64,000 nt of DNA, taken from NCBI RefSeq assembly GCF_001444425.1, contig NZ_CP013189.1:2542001-2606000 (forward strand), in the 5' to 3' direction. The notes below the pieces were generated by a model. The model was given only the letters and a program-made list of their open reading frames with translations. It had not been told where the DNA came from and made no database searches. Below are positions 3,377 through 26,593 of the stretch, piece by piece. The translations under genes and the position numbers were made by a program. Positions within the stretch are counted from its first letter, which is position 1, and the number at the start of each line of letters is the position of its first letter. Source of the DNA: Pseudohongiella spirulinae (GTDB taxonomy: Bacteria; Pseudomonadota; Gammaproteobacteria; Pseudomonadales; Pseudohongiellaceae).

Positions 3377-4873
3377 ATGAAAATTTCGCTACAGCTAAAA
3401 CTTGGTCAGCAACTGACCATGACACCGCAGCTGCAGCAGGCTATCCGGCTACTGCAGTTATCAACACTGGACCTTCAGAACGAGATCCACGAAGCACTGG
3501 AATCCAATCCCATGCTGGAACTCGACGAGTCACAGGAAGCGCCAGAAAGTACCAACGACTCCTACGAAGAACGCGAACTGGCATTTGATAAGGCAACAGC
3601 CAAAGCCACAGAAGACACCTCTGAAGACAGCAGCGACTCCAAATGGGAAGACAGCATTCCGGAGCAGTTGTCCGTCGACACGCACTGGGACGACATCTAC
3701 CAGAGCACCTACACAACCGGCGGCCCGGCATCTGACAGTGACGACAACGACTTTGAGTCTCGCGATTCCGCCTCAGAAACACTTCAGGATCACCTGAGCT
3801 GGCAGCTCAATCTGACCAATATGTCCGATATAGACCGGCTGATCGGCATGGCCATTATCGATGCCATTGACGCTAATGGTCAGCTGTCAGTCAGTGTGCA
3901 GTCTATTCTGGAAGGATTGCAGGGCGAACTGGAGGTCGACGAGGACGAAGTCATCGCGGTACTGCACCGCATCCAGCAATTCGATCCGGTGGGTGTTGCT
4001 TACCGCGATCTATCCGAGTGTCTGAGCATCCAGTTGCAACAGATTCCGGTTGCGGCCCGAACAGAGGCAATTGAACATGCCCTGGTGCTGGTCAAAGACC
4101 ATCTGGACCTGCTTGGCAGCCGCGACTACGCACAGATCATGCGTCTGGCCCGACTGAAGGAACATGAACTGCGTGATGCAATTGCCATCATCGAAAAACT
4201 TAATCCGCGACCCGGCGCCGACATTGCGCCGGCCAATACCAATTATGTTATACCCGATGTCATTGTCACCAAAGACAAACGCAGTGGCCGCTGGCAGGTC
4301 GAACTAAACCCTGAAACAGCGCCCAGGTTGCGCATCAATGCCGACTACGCAGCACTGGTAAAACGCTCTGAAAACAGTGCAGACAACAATTACCTGAGAG
4401 ACAATCTGCAGGAAGCCCGCTGGTTTCTGAAAAGCCTGCAGAGTCGCAATGAAACCCTGCTGAAAGTCGCCAGTCGAATTGTTGAGCATCAACAGGGTTT
4501 TCTGGAACATGGCGAAGAAGCCATGAAACCCCTGGTTCTGCACGATATCGCCGAAGCGGTTGAAATGCATGAGTCGACCATTTCCCGGGTCACCACACAA
4601 AAATATATGCACACGCCGCGCGGCATCTTCGAGCTTAAGTACTTTTTCTCCAGCCATGTCAGTACAGCTGCCGGGGGCGAATGTTCATCTACCGCCATAC
4701 GTGCCCTGATCAAAAAGTTGGTTGCTTCAGAGAATACCCGCAAGCCGCTGAGTGACAGTAAAATTGCCAAACTGCTGGAAGAGCAGGGTATTAACGTAGC
4801 ACGGCGGACAATTGCCAAGTATCGTGAATCACTGGCGATACCGCCCTCCAACGAGCGAAAACGCCTGGACTGA
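3377..4873 (+). CDS. rpoN: RNA polymerase sigma-54 factor RpoN
   Basis: Sigma-54, needed for transcription from -24/-12 promoters together with NtrC-family activators. The start was set at ATG 3377 because the protein then begins [20 protein letters not shown], the conserved Region I; an upstream in-frame ATG (3323) would add unrelated residues. Region I is followed by an acidic Region II (residues about 50-150), the core-binding domain, and the DNA-binding C-terminus with the RpoN box [11 protein letters not shown] near the end. The 498 residues are typical. The same window encodes a sigma-54 activator (CbrB) and a near-consensus sigma-54 promoter at 24669-24684. Confidence 0.97.
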
Positions 4874-20028: not shown

Positions 20029-20205
20029 ATGTATCTGCCTCCTTCAACCCTCATCATTCTGGTGTTCAGCTACTTGCTGTACCTGTTGAGCGTTGAGTGG
20101 GCCATGCAGATGGACGGAGCCTGGTACCGACCATTTATCCTGTGTCTAATGATTATCATGGCCGGGGCCTGGGCATATCGGGAACAAAATTCCGATGAGC
20201 TTTGA
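20029..20205 (+). CDS. cbrX: Small membrane protein upstream of CbrA (CbrX-like)
   Basis: A 58-residue hydrophobic protein with two predicted membrane helices (LIILVFSYLLYLLSV and FILCLMIIMAGAWAY). It starts at ATG 20029, 13 bp after gluQ, and overlaps the cbrA start by 11 nt. In Pseudomonas a small open frame in precisely this place, cbrX, is coupled to cbrA; the assignment here rests on position, size and hydrophobicity. It may tune cbrA translation or bind the CbrA membrane domain. Confidence 0.7.
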   Translation: MYLPPSTLIILVFSYLLYLLSVEWAMQMDGAWYRPFILCLMIIMAGAWAYREQNSDEL

Positions 20206-23122
20206 ACTCAGCACGCTCTTTGCCATCGGCATAGGGTATCTGGCCATCCTGTTCGGCATCGCTTACGTCACCGAGAAAGGCTGGATTCCCGAGCGGATCG
20301 TCCGCCACCCGGTTGTATATGTGCTTTCGCTGGGGGTGTTCGCCAGCGTCTGGTCCTACTATGCCGCAACCGGCAATGCATTCCGGGACGGCTTTGGTTA
20401 TCTGGCTCCATTCATCGGTATTTCGCTGGCCTTTCTGCTATCCCCCCTGGTGCTGCGCCCCATCCTCAATCTGACCAAAACCTATCAGCTCAGTTCGCTG
20501 GCCGACCTTCTGGCCTTCCGATACCGCAGCCCCTGGGCCGGCACACTCACCACACTGGTCATGCTGATTGTTGTTATGCCCCTGCTTTCCCTGCAGATTC
20601 AGGCCGTTGCCAACACGGTTGGGTTGCTGGCACCCGAAGCCACCCAGTTGTCGCTGGCACTGACTTTTTGCCTGTTAATCACCCTGTTTGCCATCTTTTT
20701 TGGAACAGGCAAAGGCTCGGGGCGAGAACGCCACGAAGGCCTGGTGATGACCATCGCTTTTGAGTCCATCGTAAAGCTGGTTGCTCTGCTGTTGGTAGGC
20801 GGATTTGCAGTATTCAAGGGTTTTGGCAGTTTTGACGCCATGGAGCAGTGGCTGCAACAACAACCTGAACTGCTGCGACGACTGAAGGAGCCCGCTCCAC
20901 CGGGCACGTTCCAGGTCATGATGCTGGTGTTTTTTACCGCGGCGGTGGCTACACCGCAGATGTTCTACATGACATTTCACGAGAACAACCACCCGCGGGC
21001 ACTGAGCGTTGCCAGCTGGGGACTGCCACTCTACTTTCTGCTGTTGAGCCTGCCGGTGCTGCCAATACTATGGGCAGGACTCAAGTCCGGCAGCCTGTCG
21101 CCCATGGAGTATTATCCGGTTACGCTGGGCATGGACTATGACAATCCTTTGTTCACCATTATCGGCTTCCTTGGCGGACTCTCGGCCGCCAGCGGACTGA
21201 TTATCGTGATTACATTAGCCTTGTCGACCATGTGTCTGAATCACCTGATCCTGCCTGTCTGGCAACCCAGTGCGCGGCAGGATATCTATCGCTGGCTGTT
21301 GTGGAAGCGGCGCATACTGATTGCCGCACTGATCTGGGGTGGTTTCCTTTTTTATTACATACCCTCTGACAGTCAGAGCATCCGGGCAGTCAGCAATATC
21401 GGCCTGATCGGCAGCCTGCAGTTCCTGCCCGCCATTATCGCATTGCTCTACTGGCCACGCGGCAACAAAAAAGGATTTATGGCAGGGTTGGCGGCAGGCA
21501 CCGCCATCTGGGTCGCCTTCCTGGTTCTGCCGGTTGCAACCGGCATTAACTTTTTCACTCTCGGTGATCTGAATACTCGTGAAATTGTCGCACTGTCGCT
21601 GGTATGCAATGTCACCCTGTTCGTGATTGTCTCATTGCTCACACGCAGTTCAAACGAAGAAAAAATCTCGGCGGATATCTGCTCTGTCGATAACCTGCGC
21701 AGACAACGTCGTGCCCGGGTCACCGCCGGCTCAGCTGACGAGTTTATCAGTCAACTGACCAAACCTCTTGGCGAGCGCACAGCCACGCGCGAAGTCATGC
21801 AGGCACTGCGCGACCTGAACATGGATAAACAGGATCGCCGCCCGAAGTCCTTGCGTCTGCTGCGTGGCCGCCTGGAAGCCAATCTGTCAGGACTGCTGGG
21901 GCCCGCCATTGCGCACGATCTGATTGACCGCTTTCTGCCCTATACAGCCAATAGCGAGTCAGGCGCATCCGATGTAGCAGCCATTGAAAGCCGGATCGAA
22001 GCTTACCGCAGCAACCTGTCCGGCATGGCTGCCGATCTGGACAACCTGCGACGTTATCATCGTCAGATTCTTATGGATCTGCCGCTGGGTGTCTGCTCGC
22101 TTGGACCGGACGACCAGATCATCATGTGGAACCACGCCATGGAAACACTCACGGCCACTACACCCGATGAGGCTGTGGGTCTCCACCTGAGCGAAATCGG
22201 CGAACCCTGGTTCTCCCTGCTCAATCGCTTCCGGGAAGGCGACAACGCGCACCTGCACAAAGTAACCGTCAATGTTGGCGGCAACAAGCGTTACATCAGC
22301 CTGCACAAGGCCGTCATCGAACAATCAGCCAGCCCGCGTATCCGCCAGGATGGTGTGATTATCCTGCTGGAAGACCTCACCGATACTGAGCTGCTTGAAG
22401 AAGAGCTGGCGCATTCGGAACGCCTGGCCTCAATTGGTCGGCTGGCGGCCGGTGTCGCTCATGAAATTGGCAACCCCATCACCGGTATTGCCTGCCTGGC
22501 ACAGAACATTCGTGACGAGACCCAGAACGATGAGTTGCGCACCATGGCCAGACAAATCATTGAACAGACTGATCGCACATCGCGCATCGTTCAATCTCTG
22601 GTAAATTTTGCCCATAGTGGTACGCACAATAAAGCTGATCAACGGCACGAAATTGTTTCCGTTGCAGAATGTATCGATGAAGCCATCACGCTGGTATCAC
22701 TGAACAAGAAAGGCAAATACATGCACTTTGATGTCAGCTGTGAACCGGATGCCCGTATACTCGGTGATTCCCAGCAGCTACTGCAGATCCTGGTCAATCT
22801 GATCAATAATGCCCGTGATGCCAGTCCGGAAGAAAGCACGATTACGGTCTGCTGTGAACGAATTGCAGCATCGGTGCAAATCAGCATCAGCGATCAGGGA
22901 ACCGGCATACCAGATGAAATCCGGGACCGGGTGTTCGAGCCGTTTTTCACCACCAAAGAGCCCGGCGAAGGCACCGGTCTGGGCCTGTCGCTGGTTTACA
23001 GCCTGGTTGAAAACCTCGGCGGACATATTGATATAATGAATGCCAGTGACAGGCAGGATAACCCGGGTGCACGGGTAATCCTCAGTTTTCCCTGTTATGA
23101 TGCCCAGCACGCAAAAGCCTAA
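20195..23122 (+). CDS. cbrA: Sensor histidine kinase CbrA with SLC5 transporter domain
   Basis: Membrane sensor of the CbrA/CbrB system, which sets carbon-nitrogen balance and catabolite repression in Pseudomonas. The 975 residues begin with a Na+/solute-symporter (SLC5) domain of about 13 helices (residues about 5-480), then a linker, a PAS domain (about 620-740, with [17 protein letters not shown]), and a kinase core: H-box [13 protein letters not shown] with the phosphorylated His756, N-box [10 protein letters not shown], and ATP-lid motifs DQGTGIP and [10 protein letters not shown]. Length and order match Pseudomonas CbrA (about 980). It is translationally coupled to cbrX and lies 31 bp before cbrB. 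Whether the SLC5 part transports or only senses is unknown; histidine transport is reported for the P. putida protein. Confidence 0.93.
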
Positions 23123-23153: not shown

Positions 23154-24545
23154 ATGACAGCACAGCACAATGTTCTGGTAGTTGAAGACGAGCAGGTTAT
23201 ACGCACAGCGCTCCGGCGGCTGTTGGAGCGTCACGGCTACCAGGTCAGCGAAGCCGGCTCGGTCAAGGAAGGCGTCGAGCTGCTGGCTCAGAACCACTAC
23301 GACATTGTTGTCAGCGACCTGCGCCTGCCCGGGGCTCCGGGCACCGACCTGATCAAGGCCACCGACACACCGGTATTGATCATGACCAGCTATTCCAGCC
23401 TGCGCTCTGCCATCGATTCCATGAAACTGGGTGCAGTCGACTACATACCCAAGCCCTTTGAACACGAAGAGATGCTGCAGGCTGTTGAGCGCATCATTAA
23501 AGACAACCCCAAACCAACACCAATAAGCAGCAGAGCAAGAGCAGACGATACCGAACACGAACCGCCGGTGCCGGGAATGATCGGTAGCTGCCCTCAGATG
23601 ATGGAGTTATTCCGCCGTATACGCAAAGTGGCCCTGACCAGCTCCACGGTGCTGATCAATGGCGAATCGGGAACCGGCAAAGAACTGGTGGCGCAGGCCA
23701 TTCACAGGCTCAGTGACCGCCACGAGGCAGAGATGATCTCCGTGAACTGCGCCGCGATCCCTGAGAATCTGATTGAGTCCGAGCTTTTTGGCCACGAAAA
23801 AGGCGCGTTTACCGGCGCCACGGCCAATCGGACCGGATTGGTAGAAGCCGCCAATGGCAGCACTCTGTTTCTGGACGAAATCGGCGAGCTGCCTCTGGAC
23901 GCGCAAGCCCGATTGCTGCGAGTGCTGCAGGAAAATGAGATCCGCAAGGTGGGCTCTGTGCAGTCCCGCAAGGTGGATGTACGACTGGTCGCCGCAACAC
24001 ACAGAGACCTCAAACAACTGGTTATCGACGGCGATTTCCGTGAAGACCTCTACTATCGCATTAATGTGATGACCCTGGTGCTACCGCCGCTTCGTGAGCG
24101 CGGTAACGATATTCTGGAGTTGGCTGATGCCATACTCACCCGCACATGCCAACGCCTGAAGTCCCCGATTCTGACATTTACCAATGAGGCCACCCAGGCC
24201 ATTGCCAGCTACTCCTGGCCCGGCAATGTCCGAGAACTGGAAAATGCCATTGAGCGCGCCGTTGTGCTGGCAGAAACATCAGAGATTGGCGCAGAGTTAT
24301 TGGCGATTGATCTGAACAGCAAGAGAGTCATTCGGCCGCTGACCGAACGTACCCGTATTACCGAGACTGATGACGATGACTCGGCTGAAGAGCTGTCTCT
24401 GGAAGATTACTTCCAGAAGTTTGTGCTGGAACACCAGGATCAGATGAACGAGACGCAACTGGCCAAGAAACTTGGCATCAGCCGCAAATGTCTGTGGGAG
24501 CGGCGTCAGCGCTTTGGCCTGCCCCGCAAAAAGAAGCAGGCCTGA
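23154..24545 (+). CDS. cbrB: Sigma-54-dependent response regulator CbrB
   Basis: NtrC-family activator and partner of CbrA. The 463 residues comprise a receiver domain (acid pocket EDE at 11-13, phosphoacceptor Asp55 in VVSDLRLPG, lysine in YIPKPF), a central AAA+ ATPase (Walker A GESGTGKE, sigma-54 contact loop GAFTGA, Walker B TLFLDEIGEL) and a C-terminal Fis-type helix-turn-helix (ETQLAKKLGISRKCLWERR). The intact GAFTGA means it can drive sigma-54 promoters. The most obvious target is the near-consensus -24/-12 promoter 125 bp after its own stop, which in Pseudomonas drives crcZ from the same location. Confidence 0.95.
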   Translation: MTAQHNVLVVEDEQVIRTALRRLLERHGYQVSEAGSVKEGVELLAQNHYDIVVSDLRLPGAPGTDLIKATDTPVLIMTSYSSLRSAIDSMKLGAVDYIPKPFEHEEMLQAVERIIKDNPKPTPISSRARADDTEHEPPVPGMIGSCPQMMELFRRIRKVALTSSTVLINGESGTGKELVAQAIHRLSDRHEAEMISVNCAAIPENLIESELFGHEKGAFTGATANRTGLVEAANGSTLFLDEIGELPLDAQARLLRVLQENEIRKVGSVQSRKVDVRLVAATHRDLKQLVIDGDFREDLYYRINVMTLVLPPLRERGNDILELADAILTRTCQRLKSPILTFTNEATQAIASYSWPGNVRELENAIERAVVLAETSEIGAELLAIDLNSKRVIRPLTERTRITETDDDDSAEELSLEDYFQKFVLEHQDQMNETQLAKKLGISRKCLWERRQRFGLPRKKKQA

Positions 24546-24548
24546 AAC

Positions 24549-24595
24549 TGTTACCGATACTCATCTACCCATTAGTTTAGAGTTATTTGGTAACA
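24549..24595. promoter_or_regulatory. Candidate CbrB upstream activating sites
   Basis: Inverted repeat TGTTACC (24549-24555) and GGTAACA (24589-24595), 40 bp centre to centre, about four helical turns. The pair lies roughly 100-145 bp upstream of the predicted transcription start of the downstream sigma-54 promoter, the normal enhancer distance for NtrC-type activators. Each half is followed within 10 bp by the octamer GATACTCA (24556-24563 and 24604-24611), a further repeat. I recall GTTAC/GTAAC-type half-sites for CbrB in Pseudomonas but cannot verify the consensus here. Confidence 0.6.
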
Positions 24596-24668
24596 CTTTT
24601 CTTGATACTCAGTAGTAGAAACATCGCTTTAATTTATAACTAATTGTTTATAAAGCAAATATTACTTT

Positions 24669-24684
24669 TGGCACACTAAGTGCA
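24669..24684 (+). promoter_or_regulatory. Sigma-54 (-24/-12) promoter of the CrcZ-like RNA
   Basis: TGGCAC then a 6-nt spacer then TGCA. The invariant GG (24670-24671) and GC (24682-24683) are exactly 12 bp apart, the required geometry for sigma-54. The predicted start of transcription is about 24695, directly upstream of the A-rich repeats. No open frame follows, so the product should be a non-coding RNA. Confidence 0.85.
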
Positions 24685-24694
24685 TTAGTAAAGG

Positions 24695-24960
24695 TAATAA
24701 CAATAAAAAAACACAATAAAAATAAAACTCGACAAACAATAATAAATAAACCTGGCATCCAAATAGGTGCAAAATAATAAAAATAATCAAACAGGAAGGC
24801 AGTTTAATCGGGTATGCCGAAGCTGATCGTCACTGTTACTGAACTTGACACGTATTTGTGTCTCCAATAAAAACAAAAGCATCACAAGAACAAAAAGAAA
24901 TAACAACAATAATAATAAACAAATACCTTCCTTGCGGGGGGGTCGAGTCACCCCCCAGAG
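24695..24960 (+). ncRNA. crcZ: CrcZ-like Hfq/Crc-sequestering small RNA
   Basis: The 512-bp gap between cbrB and pcnB contains no credible gene but holds an RNA with CrcZ architecture. Starting at the sigma-54 promoter, it carries at least four A-rich clusters matching AAYAAYAA, the tract bound by Hfq with Crc: about 24696-24706, 24735-24749, 24773-24787 and 24899-24919 (seven consecutive AAY/AAR triplets), plus weaker A-rich stretches at 24711-24727 and 24866-24898. Between them lie possible hairpins, e.g. GACAC/GTGTC at 24847-24862. In Pseudomonas CrcZ occupies this same cbrB-pcnB gap and titrates Hfq/Crc to relieve catabolite repression. The primary sequence is otherwise unlike anything I can align, and the 3' end is uncertain: either the G/C hairpin at 24937-24956 or further toward pcnB. 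Confidence 0.75.
24937..24956 (+). terminator. Strong G/C hairpin at probable 3' end of CrcZ-like RNA
   Basis: GGGGGGT pairs with ACCCCCC around a 6-nt loop. It is very stable but followed by AGAGCATTTC rather than a uridine run, so it may be an imperfect terminator that lets some transcription continue into pcnB, or a protective 3' structure after processing. Confidence 0.5.
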
Positions 24961-25057
24961 CATTTCACCCTGCACTCTTTCTCACTTCCGTGTATTATTG
25001 CAAAAAATCAGTTGGTAGCTGCGCGCATGGATACAGCTCACCAGGATTATTGCGTAT

Positions 25058-26593
25058 ATGGACCCTGACGTGCCGATGTTAAAAAAGCTGACCCGATTCC
25101 TGTTTGGCTCGCCTGCCAAGGTAGTGGACGCTAATCAACCCGAACCTGAACAAGACACTCGCGCCAGCACAAAAACCGGCAAAGCCCGCAAACACTATGC
25201 AACCTCTTCCAATAGTCCAACCCGGGCCAGCAATACATCAAATTTGCTCAAGGAGCTGGATCTTCAGGACGTAGATATCATTGCACGCGAAGATCATTGC
25301 ATTACCCGCAAGAATATCTCCCCCAATGCTCTCAAGGTACTGTATCGACTGAACGATGCAGGATTCCAGGCGTTTCTGGTCGGCGGCGGTGTGCGCGACC
25401 TGCTTTTACAAGGCCATCCAAAAGATTTTGATATCTCGACAGATGCAACCCCGGAGCAGGTTAAAGAGCTGTTCAGAAATTCCCGGGTAGTCGGACGCCG
25501 ATTCAAAATTGCGCATGTCCGCTTTGGGCGTGAAATTATTGAGGTGACCACCTTTCGGGCGCATCACGATATTGAAACTGAAGTTGAAGATGATCAGTCG
25601 CGCCGTCATATCCGCGACCTCGACTCCGCACATACATCCGGCGGCATGATCCTGCGCGACAATGTTTATGGCAGCATTAACGAGGATGCCTTGCGGCGCG
25701 ATTTCACGGTCAACGCGCTGTATTACACCACCAAAGGGTTTGTACTGCTGGACTTTGTGAACGGACTGGCAGACATCAAAAGCCGACAGATACGCATGAT
25801 TGGCGACCCTGATACCCGTTTCCGCGAAGATCCGGTGCGAATTCTGAGGGCCGTGCGCCTGGCCGCCAAACTGGATTTTGACATTGAAAAATCCACCGAA
25901 GCCCCCTTGCCGCGTCTGGCACATCTGCTGCAGTCGATATCATCTGCCAGATTGTTCGACGAAACCGTGAAACTGTTTACGACCGGCAAATCTGCCGAGA
26001 CTTTTGCAATGCTGCGCCACTACGGCATCGCTGAATATCTGTTCAAGCCTGTGCTGAGCTACCTGACCGACGATAATCCGATAGATACACAATTTGTTGC
26101 ACTGGCGTTTCGCAACACAGACCAGCGCCTGGCGCAAGGCAAGTCAATAACCCCCGCGTTTTTGTATGCGGCTCTGCTGTGGCCAGTACTGCGCCATGAG
26201 CTGATGCAGCAGAACGGCAACCGGCGACCCACTGCCACACAGATTCAGCAGACAGCCAGCGATGTGATTGCATCACAGCTACGTTATACGGCAATCCCCA
26301 AGCGTTTTACAGCCATGATGCGGGAAATCTGGGAACTGCAGTGGCGACTGGAACCGGTCAGTAAAAGAGCGGTTGACGGCGCAATGGGGCATCAGCGTTT
26401 TCGCGCCGCCTACGACTTTCTGCTGCTGCGCGAAGAGGCAGGTGAAGATCTGGGCGGAACCGGCGCATGGTGGACCCGTTTCCAGCTGGGAGATCGTGCT
26501 GATCAGGAAAACATGATCGCTGCCCTGCAGAGCGCTAAAAAGAAACGCCCGCGCCGCCGCAAACCACGTAAACAGTCGGAGTCAGCGGATTGA
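25058..26593 (+). CDS. pcnB: Poly(A) polymerase I PcnB
   Basis: Adds poly(A) tails to RNA 3' ends, promoting decay. The 511-residue protein has the nucleotidyltransferase core: FLVGGGVRDLLLQGHPKDFDISTDA (GG motif and DxD) and VEVTTFRAHH-type strand, then RRDFTVNALYY and the RNA-binding RFREDPVRILRAVRLAAKLDF. The C-terminus is a very basic tail (KKKRPRRRKPRK), typical of PcnB and absent from CCA-adding enzymes. ATG 25058 has AGGA 12 nt upstream; ATG 25076 (MLKKLTRFLFG) is equally plausible. folK, which usually follows pcnB, is missing; a deoxynucleoside kinase starts at its stop codon instead. Confidence 0.93.
   Translation: MDPDVPMLKKLTRFLFGSPAKVVDANQPEPEQDTRASTKTGKARKHYATSSNSPTRASNTSNLLKELDLQDVDIIAREDHCITRKNISPNALKVLYRLNDAGFQAFLVGGGVRDLLLQGHPKDFDISTDATPEQVKELFRNSRVVGRRFKIAHVRFGREIIEVTTFRAHHDIETEVEDDQSRRHIRDLDSAHTSGGMILRDNVYGSINEDALRRDFTVNALYYTTKGFVLLDFVNGLADIKSRQIRMIGDPDTRFREDPVRILRAVRLAAKLDFDIEKSTEAPLPRLAHLLQSISSARLFDETVKLFTTGKSAETFAMLRHYGIAEYLFKPVLSYLTDDNPIDTQFVALAFRNTDQRLAQGKSITPAFLYAALLWPVLRHELMQQNGNRRPTATQIQQTASDVIASQLRYTAIPKRFTAMMREIWELQWRLEPVSKRAVDGAMGHQRFRAAYDFLLLREEAGEDLGGTGAWWTRFQLGDRADQENMIAALQSAKKKRPRRRKPRKQSESAD

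Follow-up and report, generated by a model that had tools for sequence, protein, structure and literature searches.

A diverged CrcZ-type RNA predicted between cbrB and pcnB outside the Pseudomonadaceae, in a family that seems to lack Crc

Introduction

CrcZ binds and titrates Hfq via its distal face through six (ARN)n tracts with n of at least 4, and Crc acts as an auxiliary factor, according to the parts of PMC4063720 available to us. The CbrAB system is described as exclusive to Pseudomonadaceae in the parts we consulted of both PMC8871633 and PMC6296734, CbrA is spoken of in Pseudomonadaceae in passages of PMC5715377 and PMC9100948, and passages of PMC5073097 that mention cbrAB transcripts in seawater leave the organism unstated. 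Our literature searches found nothing on CrcZ together with Marinobacter, and none of the matches listed concerned CrcZ outside Pseudomonadaceae by its title or the start of its abstract. Here we ask whether the gap that follows a cbrB homologue in a 64-kb stretch of Pseudohongiella spirulinae DNA (hereafter the window) encodes an RNA of the CrcZ type, how far such an RNA extends beyond Pseudomonas, and whether Hfq and Crc accompany it.

Layout of the locus

Three protein genes frame the locus:

20195..23122, + strand: cbrA homologue, with a long N-terminal membrane part and a histidine kinase
23154..24545, + strand: cbrB homologue, with receiver, sigma-54 AAA+ and C-terminal DNA-binding region (Pfam matches and identity)
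25058..26593, + strand: pcnB, the neighbour 3′ of the gap (TIGR01942, 491.7 bits)

The gap occupies exactly 24546–25057 of the 64-kb window (512 bp), between the end of cbrB at 24545 and the start of pcnB at 25058, and is the gene-free gap that an earlier sequence-only reading had reported; the predicted RNA gene sits directly downstream of cbrB. The cbrA product has Pfam matches to HisKA and HATPase_c and shares 49% identity over residues 1–966 with its positional counterpart in Pseudomonas fildesensis (L116; tblastn). On the strength of this match, it is a CbrA with a transporter-like N-terminus fused to a kinase and adjoins CbrB; no Pfam SLC5 or STAC match was found in it at E ≤ 1e-3. CbrB itself matches Response_reg and Sigma54_activat, is 63% identical to P. 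fildesensis CbrB, and combines the sigma-54 AAA+ domain with a conserved, specific C-terminal DNA-binding region. RpoN is present in the genome, and the window encodes it together with cbrAB, the DNA-binding region of rpoN lying at 4388–4864.

Promoter, half-sites and A-rich motifs

The features of the gap are as follows:

24549..24554, + strand: TGTTAC, putative forward CbrB half-site (F), 120 bp upstream of the promoter; published half-site (PMC6296734, seen in part)
24590..24595, + strand: GTAACA, putative reverse CbrB half-site (R), 79 bp upstream of the promoter; published half-site (PMC6296734, seen in part)
24669..24684, + strand: sigma-54 (−24/−12) promoter TGGCACACTAAGTGCA, by motif; the same at the matching place in relatives
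24695..24975, + strand: predicted CrcZ-like RNA, its start inferred from the promoter and its 3′ end from the hairpin
24696..24709, + strand: A-rich motif block 1, at the inferred 5′ end; conserved in the genus
24715..24725, + strand: A-rich motif block 2; from the genus alignment and an A-R-N run
24735..24745, + strand: A-rich motif block 3; motif and A-R-N run
24773..24786, + strand: A-rich motif block 4; motif, genus alignment and A-R-N run
24866..24876, + strand: further A-rich stretch, only partly conserved in the genus by eye
24893..24919, + strand: A-rich motif block 5, an unbroken run of nine A-R-N triplets; kept in the genus, with variation
24936..24956, + strand: GC-rich 3′ hairpin GGGGGG/CCCCCC, near-invariant in g1 and part of the consensus structure of 12 family sequences

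A promoter with its GG and GC 12 bp apart had been proposed from the sequence, and this spacing is present at 24669–24684. TGGCAC-N6-TGC alone has seven matches in the window versus 1.9 expected, so that by itself it is weak evidence; the promoter followed by AAYAAYAA at 5–30 nt occurs once in the 64-kb window, versus 0.01 expected. The half-sites TGTTAC at 24549 and GTAACA at 24590 add to what had been noted before. In the parts of PMC6296734 we consulted, CbrB half-sites comprise F and R with a second R site between them and neighbouring centres 20–25 bp apart; the middle half-site (R1) in the window is an imperfect match. Across the window's family (f1), F lies 119–121 bp and R 79–80 bp before the promoter, each in 33 of 36 loci. 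R distances of 80–81 bp recur in f20, f41 and f24, and f21 has F at 122–125 bp in 14 of 15 loci and R at 102–104 bp in all 15. Motif and conserved spacing together point to a sigma-54 promoter with upstream CbrB half-sites, as expected of CrcZ.

The gap holds ten copies of AAYAAYAA, all on the + strand, against a mean of 0.48 and a maximum of 4 in 2000 dinucleotide shuffles of the gap, none of which reached ten; the repeated tracts described previously are therefore well founded. The longest of them is indeed very long, being reached by 0 of 2000 shuffles, although as a strict (AAY)n tract it has n = 6 and not the 7 first given; read as A-R-N triplets, it is nine long (24893–24919). Runs of at least five A-R-N triplets occupy four non-overlapping places, and two runs of four (at 24715 and 24735) were added by eye; the number of tracts is similar to that of CrcZ in the parts of PMC4063720 seen. 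Several A-rich CA/ARN motifs are predicted to be unpaired, the predicted unpaired fraction being 0.96 at A-rich positions versus 0.53 elsewhere and, counting A's only, 0.97 in motifs versus 0.75 elsewhere.

Similarity to CrcZ and predicted fold

At a relaxed threshold the best Rfam match in the window was CrcZ (RF01675), at 24713–24993 with 33.2 bits and E 5.1e-7 and with the whole model aligned. The covariance-model search that the sequence-only reading had suggested thus gave a match (33 bits, E 5e-7), which is the only RF01675 match in the 3.35-Mb genome. At gathering scores there were zero Rfam matches in the window, and routine annotation misses the RNA because 33.2 bits fall under the CrcZ gathering score of 95; the earlier suggestion that it is strongly diverged and has escaped sequence-based ncRNA models holds on the same figures. 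Weak matches to C0719 and blv_FSE in the relaxed search were set aside as chance. No DNA similarity to the window was found in plasmid records.

The fold of the predicted RNA is modestly better than that of shuffled sequences (z −2.62; 3 of 200 as good). The 3′ hairpin at 24936–24956, an addition to the features first noted, has one pair with both bases altered in 4 of 12 family sequences; covariation is thin, with two-sided change in 4 of 12 predicted pairs of the family consensus structure. A T-run 3′ of this hairpin was looked for and none was found, so that the predicted RNA would end in a conserved hairpin with no canonical terminator. The low Rfam score, this lack of a canonical terminator and the thin covariation count against reading the element as a CrcZ-like decoy.

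Distribution across the order

We aligned 14 sequences of the genus, the window among them and L003 left out, and found the promoter, the five A-rich blocks and the terminal hairpin kept while the linkers drift; in an alignment of 12 family members the invariant columns are mostly A's of the motifs. Comparison of the cbrB–pcnB gaps of relatives, which had been put forward as a check, therefore shows promoter, half-sites and A-rich motifs kept while the rest drifts. Other families retain the promoter, the motifs and (by eye) the closing hairpin on different scaffolds.

For counting, we defined a strict signature as TGGCAY-N6-TGC, 5–60 nt, then AAYAAYAA, within 1200 nt after cbrB. Among the loci fetched via RNA matches (window included, both genes present), 79 of 85 carry it. 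As this sample is biased towards the RNA, 40 further loci were taken by CbrB alone, picked non-randomly from the listed CbrB matches to cover further families, with the contig-end locus L205 kept. The signature is present in 32 of these 40, against 0.0 in 100 shuffles of each and 0 on the reverse strand. The eight loci without it are counted against the reading: two have nothing recognisable after cbrB (L202, L236), two have the promoter without a strict A motif (L206, L220), two have the motif farther off (L235, L239), one is the contig end (L205), and one has its unit more than 2 kb downstream (L207). In all, the signature occurs under 24 family labels, Pseudomonadaceae being one, and of the 390 genomes sampled from the order, 345 have the CbrB C-terminus (127 of 143 genera).

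The RF01675 model recovers much less. Within the family it matched 37 of 137 genomes at E ≤ 0.001 and none of the 137 above the gathering score; the filters of this search were stricter, and even the window's own genome was lost. In the order sample it matched 71 of 390 genomes, and the 19 above the gathering score comprise 16 of f21 and 3 of f2. All 15 compared f21 loci are 78–92% identical to P. fildesensis L116 over 1.2–3.4 kb, for which reason we take f21 to be Pseudomonadaceae. One f16 genome (G192) is identical to Gilvimarinus agarilyticus L118 over 3005 bp. A scan of named contigs gave six CbrB loci at 59–63% identity among the 80 loci listed, NtrC-type proteins dominating. Promoter and A-rich array are present in four of the six (P. 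fildesensis, G. agarilyticus, G. gilvus and Dasania sp.); L119 stops 337 nt past cbrB, and neither feature was seen in 4 kb of L117, labelled uncultured Pseudomonadaceae.

In the class sample CbrB matched 53 of 369 genomes, four inside the order and 49 outside. The signature was absent from all eight readable loci of those 49, one of which (L315) has a single lone A motif. Three of these outside loci (L315, L317, L319) have CbrB at 59–60% identity without the RNA signature downstream. As the signature is missing although these three keep such a CbrB, the RNA seems to have arisen inside the order and to have been added to an older regulator. Only one of the eight loci has pcnB adjoining the cbrB-type gene, so an RNA elsewhere in the outside genomes is possible. 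Three in-order loci were read alongside these: L311 carries the signature, in L313 about 180 nt separate the promoter from the motif, and L316 shows neither element. Judged from these sequences, the proposed extension of CbrAB-CrcZ beyond Pseudomonas appears sound and wider than first supposed, reaching many families of the order.

Several loci depart from the usual arrangement. Promoter and A-rich array stand before pcnB in L062–L065 (f8) and L081 (genome G307, f37), cbrB not being found in the stretch; G307 has zero matches to the CbrB C-terminus. Two or three tandem sigma-54 promoters, each with A-rich motifs, follow cbrB at L069, L121, L212, L213, L230 and L231, the pattern that an in-place duplication of the RNA gene would leave. 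L072 (f14) and L087 (f45) have promoter and array in a fetched stretch that contains no cbrB and no pcnB; they may be extra copies like CrcY. At L236 (G016, f1 genus g3), CbrB and pcnB are present and the 159-nt span shows no promoter or motif, a possible loss of the RNA.

Hfq and Crc

The genome encodes a protein with the Hfq fold (PF17209, 100.7 bits) and, as read by eye, the distal-face A-R-N residues. K31, which we take to be one of these residues, is retained by eye. So are Y25, L26, I30, L32, Q33, Q52 and T61, the distal-face residues given in the parts of PMC6422490 available to us.

PF03372 matches three proteins in the genome. The closest Crc homologue among them (G000:C1:1813165-1813932), a member of the ExoIII family, is 41% identical to Pseudomonas Crc. 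It fits exodeoxyribonuclease models, and its best PDB match is the exodeoxyribonuclease 2jc5, presumably a Neisseria protein, ahead of Crc 4jg3. All eight catalytic residues checked are kept, so that the ExoIII activity residues lost in Crc are intact here. Crc residues R140, K155, E193, R196, R229, R230, F231 and R233 are all changed, with G, L and A/S at R140, E193 and R229/R230, and the RNA, Hfq and dimer contacts of Crc are accordingly not matched. The roles of these residues follow PMC6422490, in the parts of which that we consulted R140E and E193R abolish repression.

Crc homologues were matched in 67 of 74 genomes searched, second matches being fetched in part. In an alignment and tree of 69 rows, a branch supported at 100/99 sets apart 46 proteins without the active site, and 23 are intact; the rows include the query, which is identical to one of them, and the window genome's two proteins are among the 23. 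Two sequences with an internal stop were left out of table and tree and read apart (L262 dead, L264 intact). A dead-Crc profile was run on the 137 genomes of the family and matched in 124 of them, with 140 matches in all. As its scores overlap, known dead proteins reaching at least 306 bits and intact ones up to 337, residues had to be read. All 96 of the 140 matches read, the 30 best-scoring included, have the seven checked active-site residues intact; of the 44 left out of this reading, one, the second nuclease of the window's genome (L309), proved intact in a separate reading. A catalytically dead Crc was thus not found in the genome or among the 96 matches read, and, since all of these are of the intact nuclease type, Crc seems to be absent from f1 as judged by similarity searches and those 96 of 140 matches. 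A very diverged Crc, or an unrelated co-repressor, may exist in the family.

Two other families look alike in small samples: f22, with one intact protein in each of two genomes, and f29, with two genomes lacking a match at 1e-10 and one with an intact protein. Family f4 does have dead-type Crc, in the second matches L371 and L372, and several families retain both nuclease and dead paralogues. Placed by hand on a PcnB tree whose base is unresolved, the Crc-less rows fall in three places (f1 g2/g3; the rest of f1; f22 with f29). As a supported group (99/98) encloses f22 and f29 and its remaining members have Crc, loss is the likelier course for these two; f1 may have lost Crc or may never have had it.

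The proposal that the RNA titrates Hfq and Crc consequently divides. Its Hfq half agrees with the presence of Hfq, and of RpoN, in the genome; the suggested check for both genes found hfq and, for crc, an intact nuclease as the closest homologue, leaving the Crc half unsupported.

Discussion

These results support a diverged CrcZ-type RNA, predicted from sequence, in a CbrB/sigma-54 setting outside Pseudomonadaceae. The RNA equivalent to CrcZ that had been proposed for the gap is upheld, at the level of prediction, by promoter, half-sites, motifs, Rfam match and synteny, and we think it very probable that the gap encodes a CrcZ-like Hfq decoy.

Alternatively, the element might belong to pcnB as a long 5′ leader, with transcription from the sigma-54 promoter passing the hairpin and Hfq on the tracts controlling pcnB (poly(A) polymerase) in cis. 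This would agree with the missing T-run after the hairpin, with a hairpin end about 100 nt before pcnB, and with f8 (L062–L065) and G307 (L081), where promoter and array precede pcnB and cbrB was not found. The last A-rich tract, however, lies about 140 nt from the pcnB start, away from the ribosome site, and L010 shows, by eye, a textbook terminator past its last tract; the tandem units, two or three at each of the six loci named above, and the unit of L072, where 6.1 kb of fetched sequence lacks pcnB, also argue against a leader, which we consider improbable. Chance would be a still poorer explanation: the gap is 38% A and TGGCAC-N6-TGC alone is not rare, with its seven window matches, but no dinucleotide shuffle in 2000 reached ten motifs and the arrangement recurs across families, so we give almost no credence to A-rich intergenic DNA with a fortuitous promoter match. 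Nor do we find a small protein gene at all believable. The reverse strand has an open stretch of about 60 codons, but stops occur in all three forward frames of the window sequence and the linkers of relatives drift with indels not in threes; no conserved coding frame was found on looking at these frames and indels.

A further question is whether Crc function is kept by the ExoIII-type homologue moonlighting as Hfq co-repressor despite its intact active site. It is the closest Crc homologue in the genome, and part of the family has RRKRRE like Crc 137–142 (for example L248, L326 and L329). Against this, the genome's own homologue is changed at R140, K155, E193, R196, R229, R230, F231 and R233, two of these being positions where R140E and E193R abolish repression (PMC6422490, seen in part), and the nuclease and dead groups split with 100/99 support, several families having both paralogues; a moonlighting nuclease is therefore unlikely. 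We somewhat favour a circuit that runs Crc-free in this family, in which case the RNA would titrate Hfq alone.

The preferred reading, a CrcZ-like decoy, would work as follows. By analogy with Pseudomonas, CbrA and CbrB would respond to carbon limitation, and CbrB would bind TGTTAC/GTAACA and fire the sigma-54 promoter, giving a regulatory RNA of about 280 nt that would act like CrcZ. Its roughly six unpaired A-R-N tracts would occupy the distal face of Hfq and so draw Hfq away from the mRNAs that encode non-preferred catabolic functions. Transcription, CbrB control, Hfq binding and the effect on catabolism are carried over here from Pseudomonas work; the computed basis consists of sequence anatomy, conservation, synteny, the presence of rpoN and hfq, and a search in which dead-type Crc was not found. 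An Hfq-only decoy would be the simplest reading of this combination.

The predicted RNA resembles CrcZ of Pseudomonas and Azotobacter (RF01675) in its place between cbrB and pcnB, its sigma-54 promoter with CbrB half-sites, the A-rich motif at its inferred 5′ end, its several ARN tracts, its terminal GC hairpin and its whole-model alignment (E 5e-7). It differs in length (about 280 nt versus a 398-position model), in score (33.2 bits versus a gathering score of 95), in its central core, which is seen by eye in f21, f2, f20 and f35 and is unrecognisable here, and in its setting, since dead-type Crc was not found in the genome. The genome's Crc/ExoIII-family homologue is likewise 41% identical to Pseudomonas Crc, yet has an intact active site and is without key Hfq, RNA and dimer residues. 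RsmY/RsmZ and CsrB carry GGA motifs for CsrA/RsmA, unlike the window RNA with its predicted unpaired ARN tracts for Hfq. Like them, the window RNA would be a decoy whose many repeated motifs soak up an RNA-binding protein, an analogy taken from the parts of PMC4063720 we consulted. CrcY and CrcX are extra CrcZ-type RNAs in Pseudomonas (PMC6296734, seen in part); the window genome has one RF01675 match only.

Taken jointly, our results suggest a CbrAB-CrcZ-Hfq circuit in many Pseudomonadales (GTDB) families, with Crc an optional component, derived a single time from an ExoIII-type nuclease and lacking in f1 and, in small samples, f22 and f29, so that f1 would be a natural Crc-free version; we regard this whole picture as evenly poised between right and wrong. 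CbrAB is called exclusive to Pseudomonadaceae in the parts of PMC8871633 and PMC6296734 available to us, and the RNA signature is found under 24 family labels. A covariance model built on Pseudomonas scores such an RNA under its cut-off while promoter and ARN tracts persist and the scaffold drifts. What Crc contributes could be tested naturally in a lineage that has the RNA and Hfq and apparently no Crc. As a minor observation, some family members (L248, L322, L326, L329 and others) have an ExoIII-type protein with an intact active site that keeps an RRKRRE stretch like Crc 137–142, and this basic patch may therefore predate Crc.
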